In this document: positions 1-32,387 of the stretch, in pieces
Layout of the letters: the number at the start of each line of letters is the position of its first letter
How positions within the stretch are numbered: the first letter of the stretch is position 1
Assembly (NCBI GenBank): GCA_019155205.2
Contig: JAHNZQ020000004.1
Span: 2,616,095 to 2,648,481 of the forward strand
From: Gracilaria vermiculophylla
Lineage: Eukaryota; Rhodophyta; Florideophyceae; Gracilariales; Gracilariaceae
Direction of reading: 5' to 3'
DNA: 32,387 bases
The notes under the pieces: generated by a model
Told to the model about the DNA's origin: nothing
Databases searched by the model: none
The model's input: only the letters and a program-made list of their open reading frames with translations
Program-made: the position numbers and the translations under genes

Positions 1-1571
1 TTCAGTAGAGGCAGCCGTCGGGGCATCGGGTATAGGAAGTCACTCCTTTGTCCGCCGCTTGGAGATATGCCATTATGGTGCCTACCACAAACTCCGTCGA
101 GGTGACAGACATGACGAACCGTCCTAAGGAGTCATGTGGATCCAGAACCTCCGAGGTGTCATACGCGAAGGTTATGGGCGTCGCCACGCAGAGATGCGGG
201 GAAATCCAATGGTCCCTCCAGGAGTCGTTCACCTTCAGGTAGTACTTTGGACGTTGTCCGGAGGGCATATCATGGAATTCCGTGTTGTGTCATCCGTATA
301 AGTACCCGAACGAGGTGCGTACGCGAGTTACGTCCGCGAGGTGCGTCCCCCATCGATTCCGAGTGAGCCAGTACAAACGTTCGTATAGGGGATTGAAGGG
401 TAGCACCGCAAGGGCGGAGCGTCCGTCGGCAAGGCTTCCCGCTCGCCCCGCTCTCTGTTGAGAACTCTTCTTATGGAGCAAGACTTGGAGTCGCGCCTGG
501 ATCTCCCGTTCTTCTGCGCACCTCAATTAGGGAGTATCGCAATGTCCGACCGTGGTTGGAGCGTTTTCACCATGGACTGGAGTGTGGAGCCAATGGGCGC
601 GGTACGCATCGACGCGGTTCATCTTCTGGTCGTTCCACGCAATCTCCGTGACGGCGCAGAATCGCATCGCCTGCAGGTACGGCCCAAAGTGGTGAATGTA
701 ATCCTCCACTGGACACGGCAGACTCACGCGCCTATCATCGACCGGGACGAACACCCGCGTGGCGCGATGATCGAAGTGCTCTTCTGGACGGAACGGTTCT
801 CCTGTCGAGGTGTGATACATCTCAGGATTGGAAGGGGATGTCGGCGCCGGAGTAGGAGAGGACATTCCGAAGGTGTATGCAGCAGGGTGGATGGCGACCG
901 AACGCGTGGTTGCACCTGAGGAGAGAGACCTGACACCACTAAGGGATCGTTTCAAAGCTATATGCACCACCGCGGAGGGACCCGTATCGAGCCGCCACCG
1001 TGGAATCCGAGGCGAGGCCGAGCGACCGACATCGGGCGAGTTCTGGAGCACCATCGCGGGGCGCGCACTCATATCCAACGGAGAACGGCGGAGGTGCGGA
1101 CGAGAAACTTATGCGTCCAGCGCCTTCACGGGGATAGGATGAGCGGACGCGAAGAAGAGGGTGTTTCCAAAAGGAGTAACCTCGGAAGAGTCAGAGTGGC
1201 TAACGCCTCCAGGGGGTCGGTATCCTCGCGGGACTGACCCACGGTCCGACCACGGGAGTTTCGCGCTTGCAACGCGCGCGATGCGCCGGGGGATGCGGAC
1301 GTTCACGCTGCAGACTGACGCAGCAGCACCGAAGGATGACACCAAGAAGGAGCGGATATCGCCCGGTAAAGGAGAAACCGAGACCATGAACGCCGCAAGG
1401 AGTGAAACGCGAACCCACGGCAACCCGCCACGCGGGAGTATGGAGAAGAGAAGGAACGCTCGAAGGAAAGAACGGGAGAGCCGCCGGAGGCCGCACGTGC
1501 CGCAACACCGATAGGAGCCACCCCAGGGATCAAGAAAGCGGAGGATACACCTCGAGGACGTGGTGCAATTT
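1..1571 (-). pseudogene. Antisense ORF (aORF) of element E, partial and degenerate
   Basis: This region reads on the strand opposite to element E, from the polypurine tract outward. Frames open at 1303-1533, 1109-1423, 527-1078, 290-526 and 2-268 (all minus) form one broken protein. It matches the plus-strand protein at 28931-30461 block by block. Shared landmarks include IPGxAPIGV at the start, SLSSGATTRSVAIHP, PCPVEDYIHHFGPYLQAM, NAPTTVGHC and DSWR. Stops differ between the copies: one codon is Trp (TGG) here and TGA in D, and a few codons on the reverse holds, so the ancestor was open at both. No known family is recognised. It is not Gag-like and has no zinc knuckle, protease or polymerase motif. 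The copy runs off the left edge before the Pro-rich part seen in D. Confidence 0.75.
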
Positions 1572-3684: not shown

Positions 3685-3699
3685 CTAGTTTCTATCCGA

Positions 3700-3950: not shown

Positions 3951-4249
3951 TAAAAACTGAAAAACTCCCTCGGGAGCTCGACTAATTCTAAAAATATTTA
4001 ATCTCTCAGTGCTTTTTCAACACCCACTAGAACAGCAGACAGAATAAGGTGACATCTGTTACACGGGTAGTTTGGTGATAGAGCTAAAGTAATCTAGCAA
4101 GTAGAAATAATGCGGATTGAATTAGTAGGGGGCTTTTGGGTAAATGACCTTTTGCTGAATTATTGCATTGAAATGTTGAATTTTACTTAGAAAAACGAAT
4201 GTTGTCAACGCTGTTGACACTTCTTATAGATAGTATGCTTCTCTATACG

Positions 4250-8965: not shown

Positions 8966-10814
8966 CGGCCCGTGACCGACGGACGAATCAGACATTTCAT
9001 ACACTAACAGGATCGCAGGGACAGTGAGACCCCATATATGCAGAAACATTGGCGGCAATGATTAATGCATGTACGCATTTGGCGATTTGGGCGCGCGCAA
9101 GACCGCAGGCGTTGACTGATGGCACAAGAACAGTGCTCAGGATAGTAGCGCTCAAACTACTGACGGATTGAACACCAAATTTGGCGAGCAACTCGGGGCT
9201 AAGAAGTCTGAAAGCACGGGATGGGCTTGCGCTGGACGAGAATGTTGAAGTACAGGAACCAAGAAAAAGTCTTCAAAGGCGTCTCGTTGGCCAATTTATA
9301 TGGCATGGGCCAAGCTGTATCAATTATCTGTCAACGGAAAAGAAAAAATACACTGTAGAAAGTGTAAGGCGTTTCTCGTCCACAGGATTGAGTAGCATTA
9401 GTTGCCTCGATAAGTGTTGCTCTGAATAACTATATTAGTCGAGTCACAATTTTTAACTGGCGAGACGATGAAAGCACAATGAAAGCTCTTTTCAAAGATG
9501 AAATGATCTACAAAACGCCGGGGCTGCTCCCTTTTGCCTCAATTCTGGCCATACCAATTCATCTGAAACACAGTTATTTTTTTAATGCACAATGAACTGT
9601 TTCAACTTTCAATATATGTCCCTTGAAAAGATTGGTCTACCGCCACTTGATCTTACCGTCTTCCCTCCAATTGGGTCGGTTATTTCATTTAATGTTTCAA
9701 ACCGTTCCTGCCATAGTTCAGTTAAGACCGGCGTTGTCATTGGAGTTTCCCTTAGGTTCCTTCCGGGGCTCTGGCTGTAGAATGCCGTCTATTACGTCGA
9801 GTTTTTTCTGGGCCTGGCAGGTAGGGGCATCGTTCGTTGTCGGCTAGGAATTGAAGTGTTACTCGATTCTATCACTGAACTAGAAAAGCTTTGAAGTTAT
9901 AGTTGTCAACAGCTCAGCGTGATACAAAAGAGATTTCTCTAGACCTTCGATTATTAGGCAATCGTGAAAGGTAAGTAAAGGCTCTCACGATCTATTACGG
10001 TACTGTGTGCAAGCACTGACCACCAGTATTCTCCTACACAGAGCTAGCGTCTACCACATCTCTAAGGGAGTACACGACTGTGCCAGGGTCCGACTCAGCG
10101 TCCCACCAGATGCATTGGAGGACGAAGTGAATCCGGGGCGTAGCGAGCCAGCGCGAGAACCGATGTTAACGTCCACCGCCCAAAACATTGATAAAAAAGC
10201 CTTGCCATGTCTATGATATCCAACTGCAGAGCTGCTGCGAACTCGAGGTTCACTTCAATAGTAACAAATATTGTCGCATGGTGCGCTGCCTTTCATACCA
10301 GAAGACAAAAATCTGGTCTTGTGTTTGCGATCTAAGATTCCTTGTTACCCGCGATCCACAGATGCAGGTCAACAGTTGCTGTGATCACGCAGTCCTACTG
10401 AACAAAAGTGAATCTCTAAGCTACATATGTTCCGGACGTCTTGCATATTTGTTTATCAAGTCGCATACTATCAATATGACGTACCCATTTGTGGTGCAGT
10501 GCCCCAAAGGAGAAAGTACTACGAAGGATGATCGGATCCTTCCTCTCGCGAGGTGGTTCAGAGGCAGAGCCTTCCTCGGGCGAGGCACACAAGCCGAGCG
10601 TAACTCCGGGCCCAAGGTGTCGCAACTGGTGCAGGAGGAAGAGAAAGGAGGAGAAACCGGAGATCCGGTAAGTCCTATGATTGAGGTAGTTTCCGTGAGT
10701 TCGGTGAAATTTCTCTGTAATATTTCGGGCTATCTCGGCGTGGCCGGGTAATATATTGGGCCGCGCGGGTATCGAGCAAGCTGCGATGAGCGCGTGGCGG
10801 CTCGCGCTTCGAAC
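8966..10814. other. No recognisable gene
   Basis: About 1.85 kb between the Gypsy B LTR and the first mariner. Short frames exist on both strands. The longest is 10188-10751 plus, which begins at TTG and has no recognisable motif or repeat partner in the window. It is probably old element debris or intergenic DNA. I see no tRNA, repeat array or promoter I can defend. Confidence 0.4.
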
Positions 10815-13753: not shown

Positions 13754-14830
13754 TCAGTGGTGTTGCGGTATTTCTTCATCTTCAACACTCTCGATAGCCT
13801 CCCGAGCGATGTTACCAATACTGGTCAAAACCGCAATGGTAGCAATCAATCCCGTAACAACTAGCCATGGGTTCATGGAGCCTTGACCATCATGCAGGTC
13901 GGTAAGGGCGTTAACAGCCGCCCCCGCGCTCACGTAAGCAATTGTGCCTGGCAGCATTCCCAACCATGAGCCCAGCATGTAGTCGCCAAGTCGTACTGAT
14001 GTGAGACCATACAGGTAGTTAGAAATGGCGAATGGGAATAACGGTGACAGGCGCAGCAACAGAACGAACTTGAGACCCTCGCGTCCGATGGCGCGGTCGA
14101 AGACACGGAAGCGCGTGTTTCGTTCGGCTATCCTGGATACGCTGGCTCGGAGGCCATAACGAGCAATTAAGAATGACACTGTGGCGGCCACCGTGGACGC
14201 GATGGAAACAGTGATGGTGCCGTCCAGCAATCCGAAGAGATATCCGGATCCAAGAGTAAGCGGAAGCGCTGGCACAGCGATGAGCTCCAAAACAAAGTAG
14301 AGTACGCCGTAAAGATATATTGCATTTGGACCCAGTTGCTCAAACCAACGCGCTATGTACAACAGAGCGTCTGGACTCACGAATCCCGTAGCAGCTGCAA
14401 CGCTGCCTAAAACGAGACATGTGACAAGAAAGCCACCGGCGGCGACGAGGCGGGAGTCTATTGGCTCAGTTGCAGCGGATGTGGATGGGCTGGCGTCCGA
14501 GTCAATTTCAGAGGACGAAGGAGGTGGGGCGGAATGGTGGGCGTGTTCAACGTCTGAACTTCCGTATGTCGGGGTGTCACACCTGGATGGTGGTGCATCG
14601 CCAGATGGCTCGGATGACATACATGTGCTGATTGCGCGGGCGCGGCAAAGAGGGAATCGGTAGATGTGCAGAGGAAGGGACTGAAGGGCAGCCCGTTGCC
14701 ATAGGGGGGAAGCGTGAAAGCGAATCTGAGAGACGGAGTGAGTGAAAAGAAGATGCGCAGAAAAGCGCATTTCGAGATGTGACGCGGGCCTCAACGGATA
14801 TAGGTTCTGCCGCAGAGCACGCCGCAACAC
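13754..14830 (-). CDS. TVP38/TMEM64 family membrane protein (VTT domain)
   Basis: A 358-residue protein from one uninterrupted exon. The SNARE-associated/VTT (DedA-like) domain lies at about residues 170-310. Its landmarks are ELIAVPALPLTLGSGYLFG (182-200), with the family's acidic residue before a Pro-rich re-entrant loop and G-x-LFG, and FVLLLRLSPLFPFAISNYLYG (from 255), with the conserved Arg-Leu-Ser-Pro and Asn-Tyr-x-x-Gly. Membrane segments are likely near 128-150, 170-188, 205-224, 285-305 and 320-340. Family members act in ER, Golgi or plastid membranes in lipid scrambling and membrane homeostasis; this one's site is unknown. Residues 1-70 are rich in Arg, Ser, His and Leu and poor in acids, like an organelle transit peptide, followed by a Ser/Pro-rich linker. 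Met71 (14618-14620) is an alternative start giving 288 residues. No stop or frameshift, unlike everything around it. Confidence 0.9.
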   Translation of the reverse strand: MLRRALRQNLYPLRPASHLEMRFSAHLLFTHSVSQIRFHASPLWQRAALQSLPLHIYRFPLCRARAISTCMSSEPSGDAPPSRCDTPTYGSSDVEHAHHSAPPPSSSEIDSDASPSTSAATEPIDSRLVAAGGFLVTCLVLGSVAAATGFVSPDALLYIARWFEQLGPNAIYLYGVLYFVLELIAVPALPLTLGSGYLFGLLDGTITVSIASTVAATVSFLIARYGLRASVSRIAERNTRFRVFDRAIGREGLKFVLLLRLSPLFPFAISNYLYGLTSVRLGDYMLGSWLGMLPGTIAYVSAGAAVNALTDLHDGQGSMNPWLVVTGLIATIAVLTSIGNIAREAIESVEDEEIPQHH

Positions 14831-17412: not shown

Positions 17413-18117
17413 ATGAAGCACTTATCTGAAATCACTTTAAGGAACAGAGGCGACTTTATATCTATGATTTCAAAAGGAAGCGTCCCTAATAGTGACATGA
17501 TGGCCGTAATGTGGATGGATCGAGATAGGGAATACTTTATTTCAACCTCAGACACAGTTAATCCTGGTACTTCTATTGTAAGGGAGAGATGGAGGCGGGA
17601 GGGATCTATTTCTAAGAAAATGGGATCTGAGGTTGCAATTCCTGAGATTTGTGAAGAATATTACAAAACATGCTCCATGATCGATCGCCATAACAGATGC
17701 CGACAAGATGATTTAAATCTGGAAAAGAAAATAGAAGTGAAAGAGTGGTCATTTCGAGTCAATTGCTCTCTTTTAGCAATTTGCATTCTGGATGCATGGA
17801 AACTGTATAAGGCAACAAAGGGATATAAGAGCGTTAAAAGTCCCCATCAATTTTATTGTGAGTTGGCCGATGAATTAATGGACAATACTTGGGACACGAC
17901 TGCTTTAATGAAAAGACTTGAACCGGAAAATGAAAATAATACTGAACAACCAATATTTGCCGGCACTGGCTTGCATTTAATACAAACCAACAGAAGAAAT
18001 AAAACAAAAAATGGAATGATTACAAAAGCTTTATATCAAGGTCTATGCAATTATTGCAGAGTTAATACGAAAGCGAAGTTTTTATGTTCTGGATGCTATT
18101 CAAGGAAAGAAAAATAA
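17413..18117 (+). pseudogene. piggyBac transposase C-terminal half (DDE_Tnp_1_7)
   Basis: A 234-codon open frame, the longest intact transposase piece in the window. It covers ITLRNRGDFISMI, MMAVMWMDRDREYFISTSD (the family's V-W-D-x-K strand), CSMIDRHNRCRQDD with the third catalytic Asp, the EWSFRVNCSLLA helix, and the start of the cysteine-rich domain (LCNYCRVNTKAKFLCSGC). The stop at 18115-18117 cuts that domain. The same frame continues with VFLCHTGTNRDCFIKH and EEC, the expected second half, so this is a premature stop. The first two catalytic Asp lie in the missing 5' part. Confidence 0.8.
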
Positions 18118-18480
18118 GTGTTTTTATGTCACACTGGTACGAACAGAGATTGTTTTATAAAACACATTGAGGAGTGTCACGGTATAGAGGGGCATAGTAT
18201 CTAAAAGAAATTTCAACAACGTTGACAAAACTCGTTTTTTAAGTAAAATTCAACATTTCAATGCAATTATTGAGCAAAAGTTCTTTTACCTTAAGCCCCC
18301 TGCTAATTCAATCCGCGTTATTTAGACTCGCTAGATTATTTAAACTCTATTACGAAACTGCCCCTTTAACAGATGTCATCTTATTCTGTCTGCTGTTCAA
18401 GTGGGTGTTGAAAACGTTCTGGAAGTTTAAATATTTTTAGAATTAGTCGAGCTACCGAAGGAGTTTTTGAGTTTTTAGAA

Positions 18481-18556
18481 CCTCAGCGGGGTTCGAACTC
18501 AGGATTAGTTGCTTGCATGTAGTCTGATGACCACTGAGCTGCTGTGATAGCTCAGG
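18481..18556 (-). other. tRNA-like segment in piggyBac-2
   Basis: On the minus strand CAGCAGCTCAGTGGTCATC (A-box-like) and GAGTTCGAACCCC (B-box-like) match the copy at 3876-3950. Both boxes are conserved better than the sequence between. The arms do not fold as a full tRNA. Confidence 0.55.
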
Positions 18557-18678
18557 GCGTGTTCTACAACCATTTATTGTTCACAGGCAATCCGGGATAA
18601 CAGGTTTTTAATTTTAAAATTTCCAAAATATTGGCCTACGGGCCAAATTCCAATTTTTTATTTTTAGTTTTGCGTGAT

Positions 18679-18731
18679 GGTGCGCTGACCTCATATGAGG
18701 TCAATCTGACCTCATATGAGGTCAGCGCACC
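18679..18731. repeat. Perfect double-palindrome end of piggyBac-2
   Basis: Two 24-base arms are perfect inverted copies of each other around a 5-base spacer (AATCT): 18679-18702 and 18708-18731. Each arm contains the 16 bp perfect palindrome GACCTCATATGAGGTC (18687-18702 and 18708-18723). Either each palindrome or the whole 53 bp could fold back. Confidence 0.95.
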
Positions 18732-18748
18732 GGGCTGATAGACACTAG

Positions 18749-19255: not shown

Positions 19256-19377
19256 TGAAAGGATCGTCCGCTTGACTCCGGAGAGTCGGGCGGGACGGAA
19301 CCGCCGGCCGTTTCTTTACTTTGCACTGTCGGGTGGAACTGGTGGATACTGTTGCCCGTTCCAGTGAGCGGCCAGCA
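19256..19377 (-). repeat. 3' LTR of the Copia element (122 bp)
   Basis: Minus-strand start TGCTGGCCGCTCACTGG, end GGACGATCCTTTCA. Same length as the 5' LTR, with about nine differences by eye. An AAAGTAAAGAAA stretch stands where the other copy has AAAATAAAGAAA, a possible polyadenylation signal. Very short for a Copia LTR. Confidence 0.85.
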
Positions 19378-19622
19378 TCTGGTTATTTACCGTCCCTCGC
19401 AAACATAATAACTAAAGCATGTGTTGCATACAAACTACAGTACTCAACGTAGCGTCTACCGTTAAAAACCTTTGCCGTGATAAATCCCTTTGGGACAAAA
19501 CTCATGACATGAGAAAAAGGTAGAGCTCTCAAAACAACTTAAAGACAAAAGGATACATCCAAAACAAAGATATGAGAAACGCATAGCAATAGACAAAAAT
19601 AAATATAGTTAGTAAAAAAACC
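19378..19622 (-). other. Copia 3' untranslated region
   Basis: Lies between the pol stop (19623) and the 3' LTR. A purine-rich GCGAGGGACGG lies about 12 bases before the LTR on the minus strand, a poor polypurine tract. No frame of note. Confidence 0.5.
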
Positions 19623-20426
19623 TTAAGCTCTCAAGCCGCAAAGCAGACGGTATTTTTCAAGCTTATCAGCTTTCAAAGCTTTTGTTAACACATCGGCGGG
19701 TTGCAAACTCGTGTCGATCTTATTCAATTGCACAACGCCATTCTTCACCAGTTCTTTGACATGGTCGTACTTCAATGCAATATGTTTCTTCCTTTCAGAA
19801 GTCTTTGGCTTCGCAGCAATAGAGGCTGCTGTTGTGCTATCGCAGTACAATGCGATTGGGTACATCCTAGGTTCACATTCACTTAGCACTTCATCTGTGC
19901 GCATTTTGAAGAACAATCTTTGCAGCCAAGTTAATGTCTTACAACAATAAGAGAGCGCAATGTACTCAACTTCTCCTGACTACAACGCAATTAACGTTTG
20001 CTTCTTAGGCGTCCATATGATCGGTGCTTCATTCCTCTTGATCAATATGCCAGTCGTAGAACTTCTTGTCTCACGACAACCGGCCCAATCTGCATCACAA
20101 TATGCTTCCATTGGCGCCGATACATCAGATAGAAAGAACAAACAAATACCCTTCGTACCCTTTAGGTACCTTAACACTCTCATGGCTAAACCCATATGCC
20201 TCATGCACGGGTCGTGAACCTGTATTGCCATCATTGAAGCTGCAAACATGATGTTCGGACGTGAAAAAACAGTCAGATACATCAAATGTCCTACCATCTT
20301 TCGGTAGCGACCGTGAAGCGCAGGCGATATACTCTTCCCATTGTCGCCACGACTGCTCACGTCACACGGAGAGGGCAATGGCGTCCTAGCACAATTAGAG
20401 TTGGAGAGCCCATACTCTTTCAACAT
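19623..20426 (-). pseudogene. Copia RNase H and end of RT
   Basis: Minus frames 19980-20426 and 19623-19916. The first holds YLTVFSRPNIMFAAS and YLKGTKG, the usual RT-RNase H connection, then AYCDADWAGCRETRSSTTG, with the first catalytic Asp residues of the Copia RNase H. The second holds ALYCDSTTAASIAAKP, ERKKHIALKYDHVKELV and QPADVLTKAL, the closing landmarks. The two frames are joined by a short broken stretch (19917-19979). RNase H removes the RNA strand during reverse transcription. Confidence 0.85.
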
Positions 20427-21624
20427 CTTATCGACGTACCTCGGTTGCTGGGCCTTAATACCATTCCTACTCCGTTCAATTTCAAGCCCTACAAAGGACT
20501 TCGCTTCACCTTAGTAGTTTCACTTGAAAAATTTTCTTCATCTCTTAGTTAAAGTCTTTGAGTAGAGAGAATGAATTAGACAACATCAATATGTCATCTA
20601 CAACCACAACGAGGGACAATGTTCCACTCCTAGATTTGTACGTATATAAGCTGCGGTCGGTACTGGACTGTTTGAAACCATGTCCAAAGAATTCCCGGTG
20701 CAAGAGGGAGCCCCATACTTAACCAGCCTGTCGTCCGCCGTAGATAGACGTCTTTAGTAGGCACACCTTTCTAGGGATGTAGGATGAACCAGACGCATTC
20801 TGTGGTTGTACCATAATAAGAGTTTCCTCTAAGCCGCCACAGAGATATGCGTTGCTGATGTCCATAGATTCCATAAGTAGTCCTTTTGACGCTGCCTTTA
20901 CAATAGCAAACCGAATGGTTTCCAGACGTGCCACAGGCGCGTAAAGATTATCCAGAACAATGGATAGATATGGGCGTTGCATATCGCCACGAATAAAGCA
21001 GCGGGCTTTGGACAGAACGCTTGGCGGGTTGGTGCTAACATGCTTCTCCAAAAAGGTCCAGAGGAACGGGAGAGGATTCATCCCTGGCTTCGTATCCACA
21101 AGTGCCCATGTTCCTCTATTTGTTAGAGCGTTGTACTCTCTGTCAATGGCTTCGACCCATTCAGGCATAGATTTTGCTTCCTCGAAATTCCAAGGGACCC
21201 TGCTGATGTCGCCTAGATCTTTGGTGCGTGATTGAGTGACCATAGAGAGAGCCAGTGAAGCGTCCAAATGCTCTTTGTCGTCCTCTTCCATCTCCTTCTC
21301 GGCTTGATGCCGGTGAAGAGAAGAGAAATCGATGAGCTTGTTAATGGATGGAAGAGATTCCCTTGAAACCTTGAAGTCCCTTTGACGACAGTGAATTACT
21401 TTCCCGAAGGGCGGAACAAAGATCTGTAGTAGCGTACGCGGACTTGGCATTCCGACAAAGTATCCGAGCACGGCTCGAGGGAGAAGATCCTTGTTTGGGA
21501 CAGTTTTGGATCGGTAGATAAACGTATGACCATTTCGTCCGAATTTGAGTATGTTCGTGAAGTTCGGCCTAGTTCCAAACCAAAGTGTGAATGGAAGTTT
21601 CATTTCTACACGAGAAGTAATCAA
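20427..21624 (-). pseudogene. Copia reverse transcriptase
   Basis: A 301-codon minus frame (20719-21624) holds the RT N-terminal half: MPEWVEAIDREYNALTNRGT, WALVDTKPG, KARCFIRGDMQRP (family: KARLVARG) and MESMDISNAYLCGGLEE (family: MDVKTAFLNG), with the first catalytic Asp, then KVCLLKTSIYGGRQAG before a stop. The active-site VVVDDILML lies at 20590-20604 in another frame, so a frameshift separates palm motifs. The enzyme copies the element's RNA. Both halves of the YxDD motif remain but the Tyr is Val. Confidence 0.85.
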
Positions 21625-21639
21625 ACGGTTTCGTATGTA

Positions 21640-22260
21640 TTTTGCGTGTGATATTGCTTCCTCTCAGAGAGTAAAAGGGAGTTGAGAAGCATATAGGAGG
21701 GTACGAGCCATCTTCCACTAGTCCTAGGTGATTTTTTCGGCAGCCCCGTTGGATTGATGGGCGTATGTTGGACTATACTCTAACACCATTCCGTTTTCCA
21801 AAGCCCATCGGACGAAGTCGTCGGATCGGTTCTCACCCGCCCTGTCAAGGCGAACGCGGTAAACGCAGTTAGGCGTTATTTCATTTTCCGCGCGAGCCTT
21901 GTACCATCTAATGCATTCGAAGAATTGGGGCTTTGAGCTCAAGAAGTAAAGTGAGCAAGACCGTGTGTTATCGTCCAGAAAGACCTGAATATTTTTAGAT
22001 CCTTGTAGACACGGAGGGTTGATAAGCCCTGTGAGGTCCGTGTGGGTGAGTTCCAAAGGGCAGGAAGCAACAGATGTTGAAGTTCGAAGTGGGGCACGCT
22101 TGGTTTTAGCGTCCATGTATAGCGGACAGTAGATGTTTTCCACTTCTGGGGCAGATAGACGAGGTACTCCGTCGCATTGTTCCCCAGTGATTAACAACTT
22201 CTCCTTGCCAAGGTGTCCAAGGTTTTAGTGCCAGTATTTGGCTGTGTTCCCCGGTGCGGA
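21640..22260 (-). pseudogene. Copia integrase
   Basis: Begins with a GAG-pre-integrase remnant (HxxLGHLGKEKL near 22225, zinc site ending CPLY, where the second Cys has become Tyr). The frame 21724-22197 holds LELTHTDLTG (first Asp), VFLDDNTR (second Asp region), RLDRAGE and SPTYAHQSNGAAEK, the family's SPPYTPQQNGVAER. The DDE residues are mostly recognisable, but a stop ends the frame at 21724 before the C-terminal part. Integrase inserts the DNA copy into the host genome. Confidence 0.8.
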
Positions 22261-22784
22261 TAAAGCTGCTTGTGCGTGTGGAGGTCCTCCAGGTGGTATA
22301 GGGCTCTGCGACGGGTAAAGCCCGTCCTTTGGTGAAGACCGGTAAAGCTCTTGGTTGTTAGTTGGGTCTTTGATTAAAAACCCTGGGCCATGCGAACCGT
22401 TTGAGAATTTCGCTTGTGTGTGCTTCGTTAGCAATGATATAGAGATTCCGTTAGAGTCAAAGGAGGGCGTGTGCTTGGGCGGAAGTATTATTCCGTTTCC
22501 TAATGGTAGTTTAGTTGTGCCTTTTCCGATGATCTCTGATATCTGGTCACAAGTTCGAACAGTTTGACGTGCGATGGATCAGTAACCCGAGAATAGGTGT
22601 TTGTCTCTAAGAAATACATGTGTCGCACCGAAGTCCAACCTGGTGTTGTCTTTTTTTTGTGTGAAAGCTTGGCACGGGCTACTGTAACGAAGTCCCGTGG
22701 TGTACCATCTTCACGGTCGTTGTTGTCGCGGTTCTTGTTGTTCCGCTGGTTATGGTTTTGACCACTGTTATAAGAACCACTTCG
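22261..22784 (-). pseudogene. Copia protease and gag-protease linker
   Basis: On the minus strand at 22600-22635 the sequence reads DFGATHVFLRDKHLF, matching the Copia protease DSGATxHM-xxx-LF except that Ser has become Phe. An Asn/Arg/Asp-rich stretch (22680-22784) links it to the Gag zinc knuckle but in a shifted frame. Further down, frames at 22225-22434 are short. The protease would release Gag, integrase and RT from the polyprotein. Confidence 0.7.
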
Positions 22785-23651
22785 TTAATCCCGATTCCTA
22801 TTGGAAGAGTACTTGCGATTTTGACCTCGTCCTCTTGAACGACTACCATGTTGGTTGGATGTCTGGTTGTTATTATTGTTTTGGTTGCGAGACCAACATT
22901 CGGAGCGAATATGACCAATTCGTCCGCAGTTCCAGCATTCGACACCCTTTTTGGTTTTCCGTAAACGTGATTTCCGGTTTGTACTTGACTTTTGTGCGGC
23001 AGGGTAGGGATGTGTGTGATCCTTCCTCGCATCAGTAGGCTTTGATTGCAAAGCCGTTGATCGATGTGCTCGGCGGTCCATTTCGGAACGTAGCAAGGAG
23101 ACAATTTGATCGTACGCCATGTTGTTTGCGTCCGCAATTAATGTAATTGACATAAGGGAGTCCGGTAATGTTCGCAATAGAGTTGCGGTTCGCTTGCGGT
23201 CGGTTCACGGATCACCAAGTCTGGCCAATTCGAGGAACGTAGATTCCATTTCCAGGAGGTGTTTCTGGATATCATCAGCATCGTTGAATAGAAATGTGGT
23301 CAACTTCTGTCTCAAGTTCATTTTGAACTGATTGTTGTCCTTCTTGTACGTTACCTCAAGCTTAGTCCATACCTCTAGAGCGGAACAAGACTCACGTTCA
23401 AGTAGTTCCGAGACAATGACGATAGGTTGGATGCCAAGGTTTTGCACAATAGCAGATCGTGCCTTACGATCGGCATCATCCCAACGTCGGCGAGCTTGTG
23501 CGGTACCATCCTCTGGCCGAGGTTCGGTCAGAACGAAAAGGGATTGCAAGGAGTTCATGTAGTCTCGGATATAGATACGCCCAGTATAGTAGTCGGCGGC
23601 ACCTTTGAGCTGCGGGACACGTTTCGACTCGTGCTCGTCAGCTCCTTCCAT
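22785..23651 (-). pseudogene. Copia gag with CCHC zinc knuckle, one internal stop
   Basis: A 289-codon frame with one TGA at 23205-23207. The start Met (23651) opens MEGADEHESKRVPQLKGA. The capsid region holds EVWTKLEVTYKKDN and LRQKLTTFLF, the family's W-L...-Y. After the stop the frame goes on with ATLLRTLPDSL, a highly typical Copia Gag sequence, so the stop is recent. CWNCGRIGHIRSEC near 22865-22910 is the CX2CX4HX4C knuckle that binds RNA, followed by an Arg/Asn/Gly-rich tail. Without the stop this would be the best-preserved Copia gene here. Confidence 0.85.
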
Positions 23652-24461
23652 CGCGGAGTATAGTCAACACGAGAGGGGTTTGACAGGTGATGAAGTTCTT
23701 CGCCAGTTTCCTACTGGTCAAGGGATCATTCTTCTTCGCCAGTCGGCTACTGGTCAAGGGATCCTTCTTCTTTGCCGACTTCTTCAATAAAACACACTGC
23801 AGGCCTAAGTGCTGAGCGGTAGTTAGATGCGTTCGGATACTAAACACTATGCGGCAGGACCAAACCATACTTCAGTGTCGTTTTCTTACAGCGAATTGCA
23901 CCTTGGGCCAGGAGTAGTTCCCTTTTTCAGGGCCCCGTGTAGGGATGCTGGTGCAACTTCACCACCGACAAACCACGACACACTACGCAGTCTTTTCGTA
24001 GGTGAGGCGGGACGTTTTTCTCCTACTGCAGTAACGTAAGCAGTGGAGGCACGTTGTCGGGTCGTCGCGCGGGGTGCGCGTCGGAAAAAGTAGTTAGCTT
24101 GCGGCACGGTCCGAGTGGTAGTGATAATCCAAAGACGCAGAGTAGCGTCGGGTGCAGTATAGTTGCAACCCGCTTTAGTGCAACGCGTGAGCGGCGGTGC
24201 AGCACTTACGAGTCTGCGGCGGCGGAATATCCAAAGCGCGGTGGTGGCACACGGTGCTCGCAGTGATGAGTGCGTGGCGACGGTGCGGGAATGCGAGTGA
24301 AACGATCGCGGCGGCGGTGGTTGCAACGCGCGGAGTGGCGCTGTCACCATGGAAGAGGTGTCGGTAGGCGCGCGCGGTGGTGACGTGAATGTAATGTGAC
24401 GAGGGTGTGCGCACAGCGGTGTCGCCGTCGAAAAAGGGGTGGGGTGCGGTCTGAGGAGATC
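23652..24461 (-). other. Copia 5' leader, GC-rich, with 36 bp repeats
   Basis: An 800-base leader, long for a Copia element. A 220-codon minus frame (23886-24548) starts inside the 5' LTR and fills most of it; it is rich in Arg, Thr, Pro and Ala and matches nothing I know. The GC-rich stretch may keep frames open by chance. Next to gag lie 36 bp tandem repeats (23695-23785). Confidence 0.5.
23695..23785. repeat. 36 bp tandem repeat before Copia gag
   Basis: Two full units (23695-23730, 23731-23766) and a partial third (23767-23785), each with CGCCAGT, ACTGGTCAAGGGATC and TTCTTC. A period of 36 keeps any reading frame, and on the minus strand it reads KKxDPLTSxxLA twice. Confidence 0.85.
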
Positions 24462-24477
24462 GGTGGGGATGGTACCA
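24462..24477 (-). other. Primer binding site of the Copia element
   Basis: On the minus strand TGGTACCATCCCCACC follows the 5' LTR with no spacer. It opens TGGTA, like the initiator-Met-tRNA sites of many Copia elements, but the rest does not match the plant version (TGGTATCAGAGC), so the primer is uncertain. Confidence 0.6.
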
Positions 24478-24599
24478 TGAAAGGATCGTCCGCCTGACTT
24501 CAGAGAGTCGTGCGGGACGGAACCGCCGGCCGTTTCTTTATTTTGCACTGTCGGGTGGAACGGGTGGACACTGCTGCCCGTTCCAGTGAGCGGCCAGCA
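24478..24599 (-). repeat. 5' LTR of the Copia element (122 bp)
   Basis: TG...CA ends, direct repeat of 19256-19377. Contains AAAATAAAGAAA, a possible polyadenylation signal. Its end meets the PBS at 24477. Confidence 0.9.
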
Positions 24600-24603
24600 C
24601 CAT
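24600..24603. repeat. Right target site duplication of the Copia element
   Basis: CCAT, partner of 19252-19255. Beyond it lies the integrase of Gypsy F. Confidence 0.65.
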
Positions 24604-25283
24604 ATGGAAAGAAGTAGTCCCCATGGAGCGGCGCACTTGCAGATTGTATGCCTACGTGAGGGGGCTCATATATGCGTCCCAATACTTCTGGCGGTCTGCG
24701 ACATGGTGCTTCGGCCTCGAGGCGGTGGTCTTCTTAAACCTCCGCTATTTCGTTGGTCTTGGGGTGATAGGCTGTTGTTAACAATTGTTTATTTCCCAGC
24801 ATTCCGAAAATGGCGCTGAACAGCCTCGCCGCAAACTGCAGCCCGTTATCCGTAAGGAGATACAACGGTGTCACATATGGGGAAACCCAGTGCTACACAA
24901 AGGTGTCGGCAATTATTGATGCAATGGTGCTCTGGAGGGATACGACGCGCGTGATGATCGAGAACCGATCAGTGATCACAAGGAGAAATCAGTACCCTCG
25001 CTCTTTTTTGGGGAGAGGACCCAAAAGATCCATAGCAAGGAACTCCGAAGGTCCTCAAGGCGGGAACAGAGTGAGCGGCGTCCGGTGCTTACAGATATAC
25101 CCAATACCGGCTGCGCACAAAAAACAGTCCGCCATCGTTTGGAAAACGTCATTAGTTATGCTCGGCCAATAGAACTCCGTCCGCATGGTGAAATATATAC
25201 TTGATCCAACGGGGTGCCCGATAGTGGAGGGCAGAGTGGCAAGGGAAAGTTGGAAGGATATTAAGAATGTTCGTCAGCTCTGG
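24604..25283 (-). pseudogene. Gypsy F integrase (N-terminal and catalytic core)
   Basis: In minus order: H-x-x-H zinc remnants with GHPVGSSIYFTMRTEFYWPS near 25180, then C-x-x-C in TMADCFLCAA, LAMDLLGPLP near 25050 (first Asp), LLTDNG near 24860 (second Asp), and AYHPKTNEIAE near 24740-24780 with the family Glu. Then YWDAYMSPLTYAYN and SMGTTSFHM up to the Copia target site. The motifs lie in different frames, with a one-base shift after EIAE. The C-terminal part and any chromodomain are lost. Confidence 0.8.
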
Positions 25284-25843
25284 CTTGGATTTACATTGCG
25301 GTGCCTCGAACACGACTTATATAGTGACTCAGTCGCACCGACTCGGTTGCATCAGAAATTATACTAAAAAGGCGAGACACTCAATACTACCAATCATATT
25401 GTAACATGACATAAATATACTAGCCACAATTCAATAATGCTTACAACAGCAAGGCACAACAAGGCATGACAGTTTCGTACACTCACGAGACCATGACAAT
25501 GCACAAATTCACTCAACCACCTTACACTCTCCGTATTCCGCCACCACTCGTGTCCATACAGCAATGTGTGTGTATAGTTACCATGACGAGGCACATTACA
25601 CCAGACCATATCTGGTGTACATTACGCTGAGTATGCAATGTGTACACCTGGAAACCATATGGGAGTCAACAACAACCCGAATAGCACAGCTGCACACGTG
25701 TACCACACAGATTCAACATGCAACACAGCCAATGGTCCCCGGAACATTTAGTTGTCAGTAACAGCACAGTCACTTTATCCAACACCCGGCGAGGCGAAGA
25801 TAGTGTGAGTGATAGAGCACCCTCACCCGTAAACTTGTCGGGT
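25284..25843 (-). repeat. Probable solo LTR inserted in Gypsy F
   Basis: About 560 bp separate VLVRRALSWMELSKWW (end of the RNase H linker) from the integrase zinc domain, where Gypsy elements have only a few codons. Its base composition is more AT- and TG-rich than F. On the minus strand a TATATAAG box (25313-25321) lies near one end. An 8 bp perfect inverted repeat ACACCAGA/TCTGGTGT lies at 25599-25619. I cannot fix TG/CA edges or a target duplication, so it could also be an unrelated insertion. Confidence 0.45.
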
Positions 25844-26480
25844 CCACCATTTGGAGAGCTCCATCCAAGAGAGAGCGCGGCGTACAAGTACGCCATCCCC
25901 GTCGACATCCAATGACGATGTAAGGCTCCACATAGTGGCGAGGCACTCCTTGCAGTACGCATCTGTACTCTGCTCCTTCAGAAACTCCGATATGGTGATG
26001 AGGAAAACTTCTTATTCTTCTTCAACAAGGGCCATCACCTCAGGGAGCCAACTGTATTTTCCTCCAGCTTCACAACGTTCCAAGAATTATCCATCGGAAC
26101 CTTCTTTACCGTCATCATCCTGAATGACCAGACACGGAATTATGTCCTCCAAAAGGTGTTTTGTCTTCTCCTCCGGTGGAGATTCGCAAAAGCGCGTCCG
26201 CTGCCTGTTGTTTTCAGTCAGGACGATGGACGATGTCAAACTCGAACTCCAGGAGGCGTAGCGTCCACCTTTCCAAGCGGTCGAAACAATCGGTCAAGGA
26301 CAGTTTCCACTTCAATGGTGCGTGGTCTGTCCTCAGAATGAAACGCGTGCCTTTCAGATATGGGCGTAAAATCAAAACCGTTCAAACGATGGCGAGACAT
26401 TCGCGCTTCGAGGTGAAGTAATTCTGTTCCGTGAATGTGAAGCTGCGACTCCAGTATCCGATGGGTTGAAGTCCAACTTC
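25844..26480 (-). pseudogene. Gypsy F RNase H and linker
   Basis: Minus strand near 26150-26460: LKGTRFILRTDHAPLKWKLS, then RLERWTLRLLEFEFDIVHRP and ADALLR. These are the last landmarks of Gypsy RNase H (family: GRxFxVxTDHxxL, RLxRWxLxLxEFxFxIxHRxG, ADxLSR), with the catalytic TDH Asp kept. A stop lies after the HRPD. The linker (about 25850-26000) reads EEQSTDAYCKECLATMW and DGDGVLVRRALSW, typical of the stretch before Gypsy integrase. Confidence 0.75.
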
Positions 26481-27475
26481 AGGTTGTTACTGTAGGAGGG
26501 CACATCCGATTTGGTACTTACCAGCGTCTGTGTCCAATACCATTCGACCGTGCTGCTTCGGGAGTGCCAGGATCGGTGGCTCTATTAGTCCACTCTTCAG
26601 TTTTTTAAAGGCTTCAAACTCCTCGTCCGTCCAGATAGCCAATATCCTTGGCTTATCTTTCTTCAAGAGGCGATTTAACGGCGCCGCTGTACGGGAAAAG
26701 ATCGGGAAAACCCTCTGGAAGACGTTTCAAAACCATAGGAAGGAGCGGAGCTCCGTCTGGTTTGTGGGAGGGCGAGTTTCCTTCATGGCGTCTTGCGTTT
26801 TTCTGGAAGCCTGCAGGCAGCCCAGGAGCACAACGTGCCCCAGATAGTCCACCGAAGACTTGAAAAAGAAACATTTCTCCAGCTTCAAGGTGAGTCCAGT
26901 AGGCTTTAGGAGTTGGAGCACGTGCTTCACATGAATGAAGTGTTCCTCCACGTTGCGGGATTATATGATGAAATCGTCAATATACACCAAGGAATACTGC
27001 CACTTCACCATCGCCATGATTATGCCCACCGCTGGTTGGAACGTAGCGGGTGCATTCTTAAATCCAAATGACATCTTTAGGAATCTGAAAATTTCACAGT
27101 GCGAGGTGAACGTTTTCTTATCCGTATCGGAGTTATACATATTAATTTGCCAGTAGCCCCTGTTGGCATCCGGAATGGAAAATACGGACGCACCACCTAA
27201 GGAGTCAATGCATTCATCCATACGGAGTATCGGGTACGAATCACGTACCTTCATCTCGTTGAGGCGTCTGTTGTCAATAAAGAATCTCTAGGAGCCATCT
27301 TTTTGCCACGAAAACACCACCGGGGAGGCCCATTCGGAATTGAAAGGCTCGATAACGCCCCCCTCCAGCATACGATGGACCTCATCGCGTTCAAAATCGC
27401 GGGCATGGGGCCCGGCCCTCCTAGAGAGTTGATGTACCGATTTTGCATCCGGTGTGAGCTAGATCTTGTGCCTGA
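26481..27475 (-). pseudogene. Gypsy F reverse transcriptase
   Basis: In minus order: HRMLEGGVIEPFNSEWASPV near 27380 (family: LLxxGxIxPSxSPWASPV), KDGS-RFFIDNRRLNEMKV near 27270 (family: KDGxxRxCVDYRxLN), then the frame 26961-27254 with DSYPILRMDECIDSLGGASV, FSIPDANRGYWQI with the first catalytic Asp (here DAN), FGFKNAPATFQ and SLVYIDDFII, the YxDD active site (26965-26985). After a stop, 26727-26951 holds HVLQLLKPTGLTLKLEKC and YLGHVV. Motifs are well kept, but stops at 26961 and several shifts break the frame. Confidence 0.85.
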
Positions 27476-28303
27476 TCAGGCTGACCTGACCCAGGCGACC
27501 AGAACACATGTCTTCAAAGGCGAATAGCATTTCCACAATCCTATGGCGATACATTTCGAAATGTTCGCCAATTTAGAGCTTCTCCAACCAGGTGGCAGGA
27601 GTCTCATCCTCTGGAGCTGTTGCCTGAAAGGAATGTTCGGGACTATTTCAATAATACCGTTCGCCACCATGGGATGCTGCTTCGTCGTCAGATCTATACT
27701 TCTCTTAAAGAATGAAAGGCCAAATGCAGAGATCTGTACCCAAACTTCGGCCTGACTCCTCGCGAGTATTTCGATACTCTTCACTACTCGGAGCTTATTT
27801 GACCGCGTCTCCTTTGAAAGATTATCCAAAGGGCACGCGTTGGCGTCCGGTTTCGAAGATGCGGACACGATACGTACAGGGTCGGCGTCATGAAATGTCA
27901 CCTTTCGCAGGCGTGAGTATATTTCACGTACGTACCCTTCCACAAAGTAAGAGCCAAATATGCACTGTGCGGCGAATTTGATCGCCAAGAGGAACCACAC
28001 TTTCACCTGTAAGGAGCCCAACCGGAGATACCGGGGAATTGCGCCGAGGGTGGTGAATGCTCGACACGACACATCGTGCACCGCAGGGAACTTGCCAGTA
28101 CGCAAGGAGCCGAGAGCAGACCGCGGGAGCACGTCGATGTGCACCAGATTGCAGCCAGCGCCAATGTCGAGGACAGTGTGCAACGTAATGCAGGCGAGCG
28201 GGAAAGTTACAAAAGAGACGAACGCTTTGAAATTATCACGTCGAAGCATGCAAACAGATTCCTCCGAGGCGTTGGACGGGTCCAACGGGATGGGGGAGCC
28301 CAC
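27476..28303 (-). pseudogene. Gypsy F protease and linker
   Basis: A 275-codon frame. LDIGAGCNLVH near residues 46-56 stands for the aspartic protease LDTGAxxNLV, with Thr changed to Ile. It aligns with Gypsy B (2524-3003) and continues into the linker NGIIEIVPNIPF. The frame ends at 27476 and the RT begins in another one. Immediately upstream is the LTR of element D with no room for gag. Confidence 0.75.
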
Positions 28304-28326
28304 CGGTTCTGCCTCAACGGAGCATA

Positions 28327-28879
28327 TGGTACTGCCAGCCCTCCCTCTCGAGGTGGTAAAGCAAAACGTCCGTTAGGAGTTTTTGATAGCTCCAAAGGTG
28401 CGTGTTCCTAAAGGTAGTCCCCGGTATCCGCTGTCCTGAGCCTGGGGAATTTTTTAAGGGGATCCGCTAACACCAAGCGGAGGGGGAGGTTCGCTGGGCG
28501 GAAAATGCTCCTACAGGCGTTGCTATGGTATGAGCTGGGGATCGGCGGCTTAAAAAACTGTGTTGATCTACGAGAGAATGCTACCAGAAAAGTAGATGAA
28601 GACTCAAGGGTGCTTGTCTTTACTTCCCCAGAGGTCGAGCTCAACCGGCAGATTAAGTATCAAGCCGGGTGTCCGTCTTGGCAGGTCTCACTACTGTACT
28701 AAATACCTGCGTAAATTAACTAAAATAAATAATAATTCTACCGTCCCTTAAGGATACTGTAGCGCACGCGGGCAAAATTCTGCACCTCGTGGCCCAGCTA
28801 ATAAAATACGAGCCCTCCTAAGGAATAGTAAACCATAAGGCCATACCACCATTTTTACCTTAGGAGCCACTGTACTACA
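28327..28879 (-). repeat. 3' LTR of element D (about 553 bp)
   Basis: Minus-strand start TGTAGTACAGTGG at 28879, end GGCAGTACCA at 28327. Nearly the same length as the E LTR and closely similar over its full length. A TATA-like TACTTAA is at 28649-28655 (minus). The homology to E stops at 28327. Confidence 0.85.
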
Positions 28880-28881
28880 TA

Positions 28882-28892
28882 CCCCCTTTCCT
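28882..28892 (-). other. Polypurine tract of element D
   Basis: AGGAAAGGGGG on the minus strand, two bases before the LTR start, identical to the one at 1572-1582. The antisense ORF starts about 40 bases on the other side. Confidence 0.8.
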
Positions 28893-28930
28893 AACTTGCA
28901 TCACGTCCTCGAGGTGCATCTTCCGATTCC

Positions 28931-31394
28931 TTGATCCCCGGGATGGCTCCTATCGGTGTTGAAGCCACCGCGGCCTCAGGCGGTGGGCCCGTTCTCTCCT
29001 TCAGGCGTACCTTATTGCCTTTATGCTCCTGCGCGGCGTATTGCCGTGGGCTCGCATTTTATCCCTTGTGGCGTTTGTTAGCCCTGCTCCTTCTTAACCC
29101 GGCTTTTTCTTCTCCTCTTGATGTCACCCGTTGGTGCTCCCGCACCAGTCGGCGGCGCAAGCGTCCGTGCCTTCTGGCGTGCCGTGCACGGTGCAAGCGC
29201 GCAACGTCCGTGGATGGAGCGTGGGTCAGTCTATAGGTGATACGGGCCCCCTGGAGGCACTCATCACCCCGCTTTCTTCAAGACTTCTTCTCTTGGAAAC
29301 ACCCGCTTCCTCGCGTCCGCCCATCCAATCTCTGTGAAGGTGCAAGACTCATACTACTCTCGTCGGCATCCCCGTCGTTCTCCGTTGGATATAAATGCGT
29401 GTCTCGCTACGGTGCTCCATATCTCGCCTGATTTCGGTCGCCTGGCTTCTCCTCTAATTCCGCGATGGCGGCTTGACGCGGCTCCCTCCGCGGTGGTGCA
29501 TATAACTACGAATCGTTCCCTAAATGGTGTCAAATCTCTCTCCTCAGGTGCTACCACGCGTTCGGTCGCCATCCACCCGGCTTCGCACATCTTCGGCATG
29601 TGTTCTTCGACTCTGGCGCCTACATCTCCTTCAAATCCTGAGGTATATCACACCTCGACCAGTGCACCGTTTCGTCCAGGTGAACTCTTCGATCATCGCG
29701 CCACGCGGGTATTTGTCCTGTTCCACAATAGATGAGTGAGTCTTCCGTGTCCAGTGGAGGATTACATTCACCACTTCGGCCCATACCTTCAGGCAATGCA
29801 ATTCCGCCCCGTACCGGAGGTTGCTTGGAACGACAAGAAGTGGAACTGCGTGGATGCATATCGCGCTCACTGGATTCATACTCCGGTACATGACGACAAC
29901 GCTCCAACCACGGTGGGACACTGCCGCACTCCATGTATGAGGTGCGCTGAGGAAGGACACGTCCAGGGGCGACTTCAGGTACTGCTCCACAAAGAGAGCT
30001 CGCACCAGCAAGCGGGGCAAATCGTAAGCATTGCCGATGGGCGCTCTGCCCCCGCGGTGTTGCCCTTCGATCCCTCATACGATCGCCTCTACTGGCTCAA
30101 TGTGAATCGATGAGGGACGCACCTTGCGGACGAGACTCGAGTAAGCACCGCTTGTGGGTACTTCTAGGGCTGGCATAACACGGAATTCCATGGTATGCAT
30201 TCCAGGCAACGTCCAAACTACTATCTCATGGTGAATGACTCCTGGAGAACCCACCGGGTATCCCCGCACCTTTGCGTGGTGACGCCCATGACCTTCGCGT
30301 ATCATATCTCCGAGGTCCTGGATCCCCATGACTCTCTAGGGTGGTTTGTCATGTTTGTCGCCTCGACGAAGTTCGCGGTCGGCACCCTGGTGACGTATCT
30401 CCAAGCAGCGGACGAAGGCGTAACCTTCTATACCCGATGGCGCGACGGCCGCCTCTACTAGGACTCGCCATATCAGCCGACCGCCGGGCGTTTGCTCCCC
30501 TTGTCGGCGTCCATCCTACAGGTCCTGCGCTTCTTTGGTATCCAAAACCTGGTTAAGGGTACCGCATGGAGTGAGTCCGAGGCAAAGACGCTGTCGGATT
30601 TCAACCTCCAGGTGGCGTGGAATGACAAGCCGTGTTTCTTCTGGTACGAATACAGCGAGGACATGTTCCACCCCAATGTGAGGAGTCCGAATGAAGACGA
30701 TGACGGGTGAGCATACCGTGCCTTTTCCCCGTTTTGCGTTTTCTCTGTTTGTAAGGTGCCACGGCTCCGAATACCCGACTACGACCCCTTGATGGAGAGC
30801 TTGGCGCATGATGGGCCCCGTCAGCTACCGGCTCCGTCCCAGGATATGGGCGCACCTCTTGAGGTCATAACTCCGCGGCCCGCCGCAGTGCCGAGTGCTC
30901 CCGCAGTGGTAGCCGCTGTGTCTCCTATGGAAGAGGAAGAGATTGCTCCCGTCTCGGTACTTTCGGCCCCAGTGGCGCAACCCCGACTGCGAAGCCTCCC
31001 TGCGCCTATTCCTCAGCCTCGCCTGCGGAGCGTTCCAGTTCCCGCGCCGCTGTCACCTCCGGTGTCAATGACTGCGTCCTTGGCTTTGCCGCCCTCCACT
31101 GTAGAGCTTGTGGAATCCCGCCGGAGAGCCCCTGTCTCAGCTGGTCCGCCGTCTACGGCTCCTTCCGTGGCGGTTGTTGTGCCGTCAACGGAGGTGGCCA
31201 CACCGGGTGCACCGTCGGGAGGAGTCTCCCCTGGGGCTCTGGAGGTTTCTTTTCAGGAGTTGGTGCAGGTGTGCCTAGTGATAGGCCGTCCTGCTCCGGC
31301 CTCTCCTGAAGAGGCTCTCCGTGAGGCGCGTGCTTGGGTCTTAGAGCGCCACAAGGCCCGGACAGACCGAGCCTCGATGGCGGCCCTCAAGTAA
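28931..31394 (+). pseudogene. Antisense ORF (aORF) of element D, near full length
   Basis: Reads plus while D's gag-pol reads minus. Conserved with E from IPGMAPIGV at 28934 (preceded by TTG in both copies; ATG at 28943 is not shared, so the true start is unknown). Long frames are 29334-29735 and 29736-30113, separated by one TGA, then 30195-30461 and 30492-31394, the last with one TGA (30708-30710). Up to about 30700 the protein is Trp/Tyr/His-rich and looks globular. From 30800 to 31230 it is Pro/Ala/Ser/Val-rich and disordered-looking with QPRLRSLPAP and QPRLRSVPVP repeats. After that comes a charged helical tail. Helical remains past the TAA (SEFFDSQVLTAKASLEAEYS) reach about 31480. The total would be about 850-900 codons. 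No known domain is recognised. Confidence 0.75.
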
Positions 31395-31724
31395 AACCTG
31401 TCCGAGTTCTTTGATAGCCAGGTGCTCACGGCAAAAGCGAGCCTTGAAGCGGAGTATTCAACACGCTTCGGTGACCTGTAGGTGATAGGACCCTGACAAA
31501 TAAAAGATCCTTTGGGTGGAGCAAAAGCTCCATGAACGGTAGTTCGAATATGCCTCAGGCCGTGCCCGCGTCCTCAACAAATCAAAGTGCCGCCGTGGGA
31601 GCATGCGAAAAGCGAGCAACAGCATCCTGGATGCGAAAAAGATAACTCCAGGTAGGGGATAGACGGCGGAGACGAAAAACATCTCCGGTTGGGGGCCCCC
31701 TTCCCCTTTCCTTAACGGAAGCCC
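31395..31724. other. Convergent region between aORF and integrase
   Basis: About 330 bases. The first 90 continue the aORF frame after a TAA with a helical, charged sequence. Beyond that, stops fill all frames. Integrase (minus) ends at 31725, so the two genes converge without clear overlap. Confidence 0.5.
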
Positions 31725-32387
31725 CTATGTGGAGAGGCGTTTCTGCACCAGATTGGCGTGGTATCGCCTACGAAAGTTCTCCGAGATATGTTCCTGAGGT
31801 TCTTCCATGTCATCCTTCTAGGTGTACCCATACCAGCGGACGCGGTACAGGATTCCTGCAGGGGTTTTTCTACAGGAGACGATATGGTCCAACGCGTAGA
31901 GGATGTCACCTTCAGGGTTCAGGATGGCATCGGGAGCTTCCGGTAATGGTTCACCGAAAGCGGTGATGTGGTTCCCGGTATCCCGCGGAGTCGTCGCGCC
32001 TGAGGTGGTCGGATGAGGAAGTTCCGCGCGTTGTCCCTAAGGTGTGGTTGCTGGCGATCCTAAGAGGCTCGGCGTTGGGACTTTTGTTACCCTATCACGG
32101 AAAACGACGTCTCTGAGCCCGTTGACCTCAATCGCGACTGTATCCCTATAAGTGGCCAGGACTTTGTGGGGCCCTGAGGTGGTCGGCGCTAACTTGCGCG
32201 TGACGTCCGGCGGTTCGTTGGATGTTTCCTCGGGTTTGTCGAGGAAACCCTCGTTGCCTTCCTTCAGGTGAGATCCTTCCATCACCTTACGGTCGACATC
32301 TTGCTTTTATCTCTTCTGCGAGACATTGAGTCTCTCCTTTGCGATGGAGAGTGCGTTCTCAAACAGCCTTAGGATGGAGCGTATGGC
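31725..32387 (-). pseudogene. Gypsy D integrase C-terminus with GPY/F and chromodomain
   Basis: Minus frame 32037-32285 holds KLAPTTSGPHKVLATYRDTV followed by GLRDVVFRDRVTKVP, the GPY/F module of Gypsy integrases. After a stop, another frame (about 31725-31910) reads ILYALDHIVSCRKTPAGILY then RVRWYGYT and EEPQEHI, which is a chromodomain (family: Y-VE-I-DHR...G--YLVRW-GY----TWEP--HL). The Trp before EEP is Met and one TAG interrupts it. A chromodomain marks chromoviruses and directs insertion to modified histones. The final stop is at 31725-31727. Confidence 0.8.

Follow-up and report, generated by a model that had tools for sequence, protein, structure and literature searches.

We analysed a window, meaning the whole stretch of 32,387 nucleotides from contig JAHNZQ020000004.1 of Gracilaria vermiculophylla, and in particular the long terminal repeat (LTR) retrotransposon at its right end, here called element D. 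Judged by its sequence, element D is a Ty3/Gypsy chromovirus with a third gene that runs antisense to the others, in the space that separates the polypurine tract from the chromodomain integrase (Table 1). An earlier reading of the window, made from its letters alone (the sequence-only reading), had placed a large antisense gene here, opposite gag-pol and convergent with the integrase, and the frame, its position and the pattern of selection described below bear this out. The direction it had assigned to the element holds as well: the polypurine tract directly adjoins the inner edge of the LTR at 28879, and pol, with reverse transcriptase, RNase H, integrase and chromodomain, is on the minus strand. 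The tract was identical in 11 of 21 copies and had one or few changes in the others, and 14 of 17 copies compared at the outer edge of the LTR retained its TG, which the window copy lacks. One locus, L022, holds an additional same-strand copy of exactly 28327-28879. No TGG follows 28879 in the window sequence or in the alignment of the copies, so that nothing at that place points to a primer-binding site.

In locus L015, pol is preserved as a natural frame of 971 codons with matches to PF00078, PF17917/PF17919, PF17921 and PF00665 in this order, which is the Gypsy order. The chromodomain (PF00385) was detected in a fragment of L022 (E 2.2e-06, 27.9 bits vs. a cut-off of 25.1) and was not found in two other fragments spanning its place, L015 and window 31818-32036; nine of the ten best pol relatives carry it. 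The stops of the two convergent genes, 31481 for the antisense gene and 31725-31727 for pol, are about 240 nt apart. In 18 of 20 loci, sequence like window 28327-32387 is followed by sequence like 24596-27622, which makes the two parts of one kind of element.

Table 1. Features of element D and of a second, inverted copy, in window coordinates.
Feature	Position	Strand	Details
3' LTR of element D	28325..28879	-	about 555 bp; sense TGTAGTAC...GTACCACA; placed by the edges in copies
Polypurine tract	28880..28892	-	sense AGGAAAGGGGGTA; aligned in 21/21 copies
Non-coding leader / candidate promoter region of antisense gene	28893..29390	+	no ATG common to half of the copies
Antisense gene (antisense open reading frame, aORF)	29391..31481	+	about 696 codons, 2.09 kb; broken in window copy
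Conserved core of antisense protein, W/Y/H-rich	29707..30707	+	L019 4400-5400; placed by fixed differences
Pro-rich linker	30735..31214	+	L019 residues 461-620 contain 21% Pro; under weak constraint
C-terminal tail, Ala/Leu/Glu-rich	31215..31478	+	placed by composition
Candidate poly(A) signal AATAAA	31499..31504	+	just after the antisense stop; 15/21 copies
Integrase C-terminal part with chromodomain	31725..32387	-	stop 31725-31727 (shared minus-strand stop); runs past window end
Second, inverted copy: part of antisense gene	1..1105	-	tblastn residues 2-368; inverted repeats I1, I4, I6, I7, I9, I10

A search of the 44.8-Mb genome with the antisense region gave 582 first-look candidates, the best 40 of which were scored; they comprised the window itself and 39 other places at 81-88% identity, with one further piece. 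The window and 20 of the 39 other places, read with their flanks, formed the set of 21 copies used here. All 21 are old, and their mean pairwise identity is 86% (range 84-89%). We called a stop shared when 60% or more of the 21 copies had it. Of the six frames, a single one, a plus frame between the stops at 29352 and 31479, was free of shared stops over 2.1 kb. This frame has 708 codons (window 29355-31478) and ends with a stop codon at 31479-31481. Each of the other five frames had 23-34 shared stops in 3.5 kb, and at that rate the chance of such a stop-free run is about 3e-8. The stop at 29352 is TAA and the end stop is TAG, each in 18 of the 21 copies. The in-frame TAA divides 29095-29352 from the main frame, and its three exceptions (TAC, GAA and CAA) are each one step away from TAA. 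The first shared in-frame ATG is at 29391 (16 of 21 copies) and the next at 29409 (17 of 21). We saw no need to invoke splicing of the antisense gene, as the frame runs through.

The sequence-only reading had given the gene 2.5-2.7 kb and a start beside the polypurine tract. Neither held: the coding length is about 2.09 kb, because the roughly 500 nt beside the tract show no signal of selection. In this leader, differences fixed between two families of the element (see below) fell on codon positions 1/2/3 as 11/19/9, with no third-position excess (p 0.12). The leader also has no shared ATG where about two would be expected, a deficit that is not significant. On these two grounds we rejected a start codon or an additional exon farther upstream, within 28893-29390.

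The antisense copy in the window is dead. It has stops in the antisense frame at 29733, 30111, 30165, 30459, 30708 and 31392, ATA in place of ATG at 29391, and two small, mutually cancelling indels near 30723 and 30747. At locus L019 no stop interrupts the 708 codons (L019 4048-6171), and the first ATG is altered there too. A six-frame protein search, in which the best 63 of 1124 candidates were scored, returned four copies without a stop in the matched part, L019 included.

The 21 copies had been picked by similarity to the antisense region, and the presence of the gene in them is therefore no evidence of constancy. A second search, which reduces this bias, used 601 nt of the integrase and chromodomain of L021; the best 40 of 455 candidates were scored, and these places are the ones most similar to an element in which the antisense gene is present. 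At 12 of the 40 integrase places, the match lists already placed the antisense gene next to the integrase. Twenty of the remaining 28 were probed with 161 nt at the expected distance, so that 32 of the 40 places were checked altogether. The 3' end of the antisense gene was found by 19 of the 20 probes, including one place (L047) with only about the last 100 nt of the gene, beside an LTR; the twentieth, L045, holds something else. The 3' end, which is the part of the gene that the probes address, is thus kept in 31 of the 32 integrase-anchored copies checked. The antisense gene is a constant part of the element, and members lacking the frame, which the sequence-only reading had named as a case against itself, are not what this search found.

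The gene is present in more than one family. The second family, with seven copies (L033-L039), was aligned with the 21-copy family, and in a third, more diverged family one member (L042) retains the core. Another copy, L041 (673-1822), has lost the conserved core (about residues 133-458) by deletion and kept the N- and C-terminal parts. Loss of the core as a trait of family C was ruled out, L041 being a single deleted copy and L042 keeping the core. At locus L009 (293-2960 in plus-strand coordinates), two pieces, each an LTR plus the antisense gene, stand in tandem, 76% alike, one of them truncated at the LTR of the other. From this tandem, chromoviruses with the antisense gene seem to insert into their own relatives.

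We then compared the 21-copy family with the second family and counted as fixed a difference that passed a threshold of 70%. There were 139 fixed differences, 97 of them inside the antisense frame, and these 97 fell on codon positions 1/2/3 as 14/8/75 (chi-square p 3e-19); in the core the distribution was 3/0/43. Net divergence between the families, with the within-family part subtracted, was 0.014/0.012/0.084 at the three positions. Ninety of the 97 differences could be classed, and 68 were synonymous vs. 28 expected. The same count in four of the five other frames gave 9-13 synonymous differences vs. 26-28 expected. The fifth, on the minus strand and with the wobble position in common, gave 53 vs. 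27 and has 17 shared stops inside the gene. In the core, 39 differences were synonymous (13.6 expected) and four were nonsynonymous. An omega-like ratio was about 0.13 from the ATG onward and about 0.05 in the core. It was about 0.5 in the Pro-rich part (L019 5400-5950) and 0.34 in the tail, two values that are based on few differences and vary with the threshold. The other ratios were stable: thresholds of 0.6 and 0.8 gave 0.14 and 0.10 for the whole gene, and 0.05 and 0.04 for the core. A similar third-position excess was seen in pol, in a rougher comparison whose outgroup is one window element with its private decay not subtracted. These results, above all the 14/8/75 distribution, the 3/0/43 of the core and its omega-like ratio, show that strong purifying selection acted on the antisense protein during the active life of the element. 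The excess of synonymous, third-position changes argues for a functional protein and against an accidental frame or a function of the RNA only; it was the protein, and not just an RNA, that mattered to the element.

The antisense protein would be a product of about 700 amino acids in which a core under strong constraint is followed by a loose Pro-rich linker and by a tail that, from its composition, is likely to be helical. The sequence-only reading had described a globular half, a Pro-rich half and a helical tail; composition and selection fit this division, and the structural side of it could not be demonstrated in the models described below. No CCHC zinc knuckle was found in L019. Neither L019 nor a profile of 11 members matched a sequence in the PDB, L019 had no match in PHROGs, L019 and L011 had none in NCBIfam, and no relative of the antisense protein was found in the GTDB and IMG/VR contigs searched. 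A profile search of 5.8 billion proteins, which was word-limited and scored 7995 candidates, returned among these a single relative, P0001, of 130 amino acids and 52% identical over residues 93-194; it is located on a contig of 1166 nt with the source label 'lgn'. On sequence comparison, the best reading is that the antisense protein represents a new protein family.

Antisense genes are known from other elements. In Retand/Grande elements, an antisense gene lies between pol and the 3' LTR across the family, and some also encode structural maintenance of chromosomes (SMC)-like parts; the product of gene23 of Grande is nuclear and the gene has its own promoter; and Retand is described as a non-chromovirus lineage of flowering plants only (PMC11963269, PMC7264820). 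Both papers give the role of LTR-retrotransposon antisense genes as unknown (PMC11963269, PMC7264820). Element D resembles Retand/Grande (TRP28, PF04195) in having the antisense gene between pol and the 3' LTR. It differs from Retand, as described there, in the chromodomain of its integrase, and its antisense protein stays under the PF04195 cut-off. The nearest case outside plants, likened here by description only, is brtn, an additional antisense gene in the fungal Gypsy element Boty/BcGypsy1 of Botrytis (PMC7264820, PMC8365987). HBZ of human T-cell leukemia virus type 1 (HTLV-1) is also antisense-coded and nuclear (PMC11963269). Antisense coding, known in element D from the sequence, is what HBZ as described there shares with our case. 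HBZ is a basic leucine zipper (bZIP) protein, whereas the antisense protein here has no Pfam domain. LTR-retrotransposon antisense genes have been described mainly from flowering plants, and here a selected protein occurs in a chromovirus of a probably distant lineage. No report of an antisense gene in an algal chromovirus was found in the literature searched, with subscription journals mostly outside its reach. As to the host, 120 of 6491 pol relatives were listed, and just two of these carry organism names, Agarophyton chilense and Chondrus crispus (48% and 47% identity). Both are red algae, which gives indirect support to the view that the chromovirus is algal, as the sequence-only reading had thought probable, and that it probably comes from a red alga. 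The two species have a related pol, and none of their proteins appeared among the matches listed when the profile of the antisense protein was searched, with 7995 candidates scored.

The likeness to Retand may extend to the protein. Antisense open reading frames in 97% of plant Retand clusters carry Transposase_28 (PF04195), and six positions of TRP28 are given as conserved, G21, P25, L34, P46, N47 and F55 (PMC11963269). Two of nine short fragments from our element, which belong to different families, gave sub-threshold matches to PF04195 (window 30462-30707, E 0.17; L030, E 0.22). Both lie at the same place and cover nearly the same part of the profile (positions 10-30 and 9-29 of 69). A helix motif, GRLLP...VL, is conserved in many copies, and in GRLLPLSASIIRVL the residues G, P and L stand as far apart as G21, P25 and L34 do in TRP28; P46, N47 and F55 are unmatched. 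Other results speak against the link. The best match reached 12.6 bits vs. the cut-off of 26.2; the seven other short fragments, the 33 members of set A1 and the 11 of set A2, not all of which cover the place, did not match; a genome scan for PF04195 had no match over the cut-off and listed no antisense-gene copy; and two other places in the genome outscored the window and L030 fragments. We therefore treat the echo of Transposase_28 as an unproven lead. It would be in line with a common origin, in which antisense accessory genes at the junction of pol and 3' LTR are ancient in Gypsy elements, are shared by red-algal chromoviruses and the Retand elements of flowering plants, and retain in the GRLLP...VL helix a remnant of a TRP28-like fold. 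We consider this doubtful; alternatively, the same niche between pol and the 3' LTR may have been filled twice independently.

What might the antisense protein do? By analogy with the systems above, we propose a trans-acting accessory regulator that would be active in the nucleus, with the DNA or RNA of the element itself as its target, and together with the gene model we give this proposal about an even chance. The promoter of the gene would lie in the leader of about 500 nt beside the 3' LTR, or else transcription would come out of the LTR in antisense direction; translation would start at the ATG at 29391 (or 29409) and end at the stop at 31481, and the transcript would be polyadenylated after the AATAAA at 31499. 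The protein would then act in the nucleus, as the accounts of Grande/Retand and HBZ suggest by comparison. The genomic RNA has to extend into the 3' LTR, so that every part of the antisense mRNA would be complementary to it; the two are therefore probably not abundant together. Possible double-stranded RNA is a price that the element pays for the antisense gene, and the strong conservation of the gene carries more weight for that reason. Several families with hundreds of candidate copies between them make the role of the gene testable.

Several results weigh against this proposal. No shared TATA box was found in the region searched. No Pfam family matched above its cut-off for L019, for the 11-member set (A2) or for the 33-member set (A1) of natural fragments, which agrees with the earlier statement that the protein has no recognised domain, and a single-sequence phmmer search of 5.8 billion proteins had no match. 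A hydrophobic stretch of 19 residues at residue 331 (mean Kyte-Doolittle value 1.92, Glu included) would allow a membrane protein. Two AlphaFold models had a mean predicted local distance difference test (pLDDT) score of 41 and 44 and were unusable. Such low confidence is expected because decay has struck each copy separately and deep diversity is missing from the alignment. A possible exception is a helix pair at residues about 240-287 of the first row of A3 (block means 59-81), which covers the Transposase_28-like place.

Among the other explanations, a possible though less probable one is an anti-silencing factor, that is, a protein that counters silencing by the host and does not tune transcription or integration. 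VANC counters silencing for Hiun in this manner. The constrained core and the size of the family (1124 first-look candidates, 63 scored) would suit such a factor, and a protein of this kind would benefit an element in which accessory mRNA and genomic RNA are complementary; yet the protein has no Pfam domain similarity, and nothing in this analysis linked it to methylation or small RNAs. A structural or particle role, as a second capsid-like protein, a chaperone or a membrane protein encoded antisense by happenstance, appears unlikely. Pro-rich plus helical regions are found in Gag proteins, and the hydrophobic stretch lies in the core; against this role, that stretch is the sole strong one and includes Glu, L019 has no CCHC knuckle, and no Pfam gag or env family matched. 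The missing knuckle and the lack of a TGG after 28879 also speak against the gag of a second, oppositely oriented element, a case that the sequence-only reading had itself raised. That the gene is a captured second element or host gene decaying outside the life cycle of the element would agree with the age of the 21 copies, and is very improbable given the gene end kept beside the integrase in 31 of the 32 copies checked, its presence in three diverged families, the purifying selection between two of them and the absence of a PBS-like TGG at 28880. We find it equally hard to credit that the antisense RNA alone matters, in copy-number control via double-stranded RNA with an incidental open frame: regulatory RNAs of this type have been discussed in connection with LTR elements (PMC7264820), but a function of the RNA would not lead one to expect third positions to hold 75 of the 97 fixed differences or the core ratio to be 0.05, so that an RNA effect is contradicted as the sole function and may act in addition to the regulator proposed here.

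Element D has company in the window. The second, inverted copy at its left end (Table 1) has an LTR at about 1585-2139. On the other side, 24596-28324 and 19256-24599 look nested, with D inside a related chromovirus (24596-28324) that is itself interrupted by a Copia-like element. From the coordinates, D appears to have inserted into the 24596-28324 element after the latter had been struck by the Copia-like element. The Copia-like element has an RVT_2 match, a CCHC motif in the minus frame 22785-23204 and direct repeats of 122 bp that are 93% alike. Two inverted piggyBac-like copies lie at 3685-5705 and 17413-18748 (PF13843, one piece over and one just under the cut-off), with GACCTCATATGAGGTC palindromes near their ends. 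Forty genomic candidates of this kind were scored, and because their identity reaches 95%, the piggyBac-like copies are probably younger than the chromovirus. Amid the transposons, on the minus strand at 13754-14827, lies a gene that resembles a host gene and encodes a VTT domain (E 1.2e-23). Elsewhere in the genome, an open frame resembling octopine/nopaline dehydrogenase (PF02317, E 6.8e-30) stands beside a copy, on the minus strand of L016 at 8533-9898.
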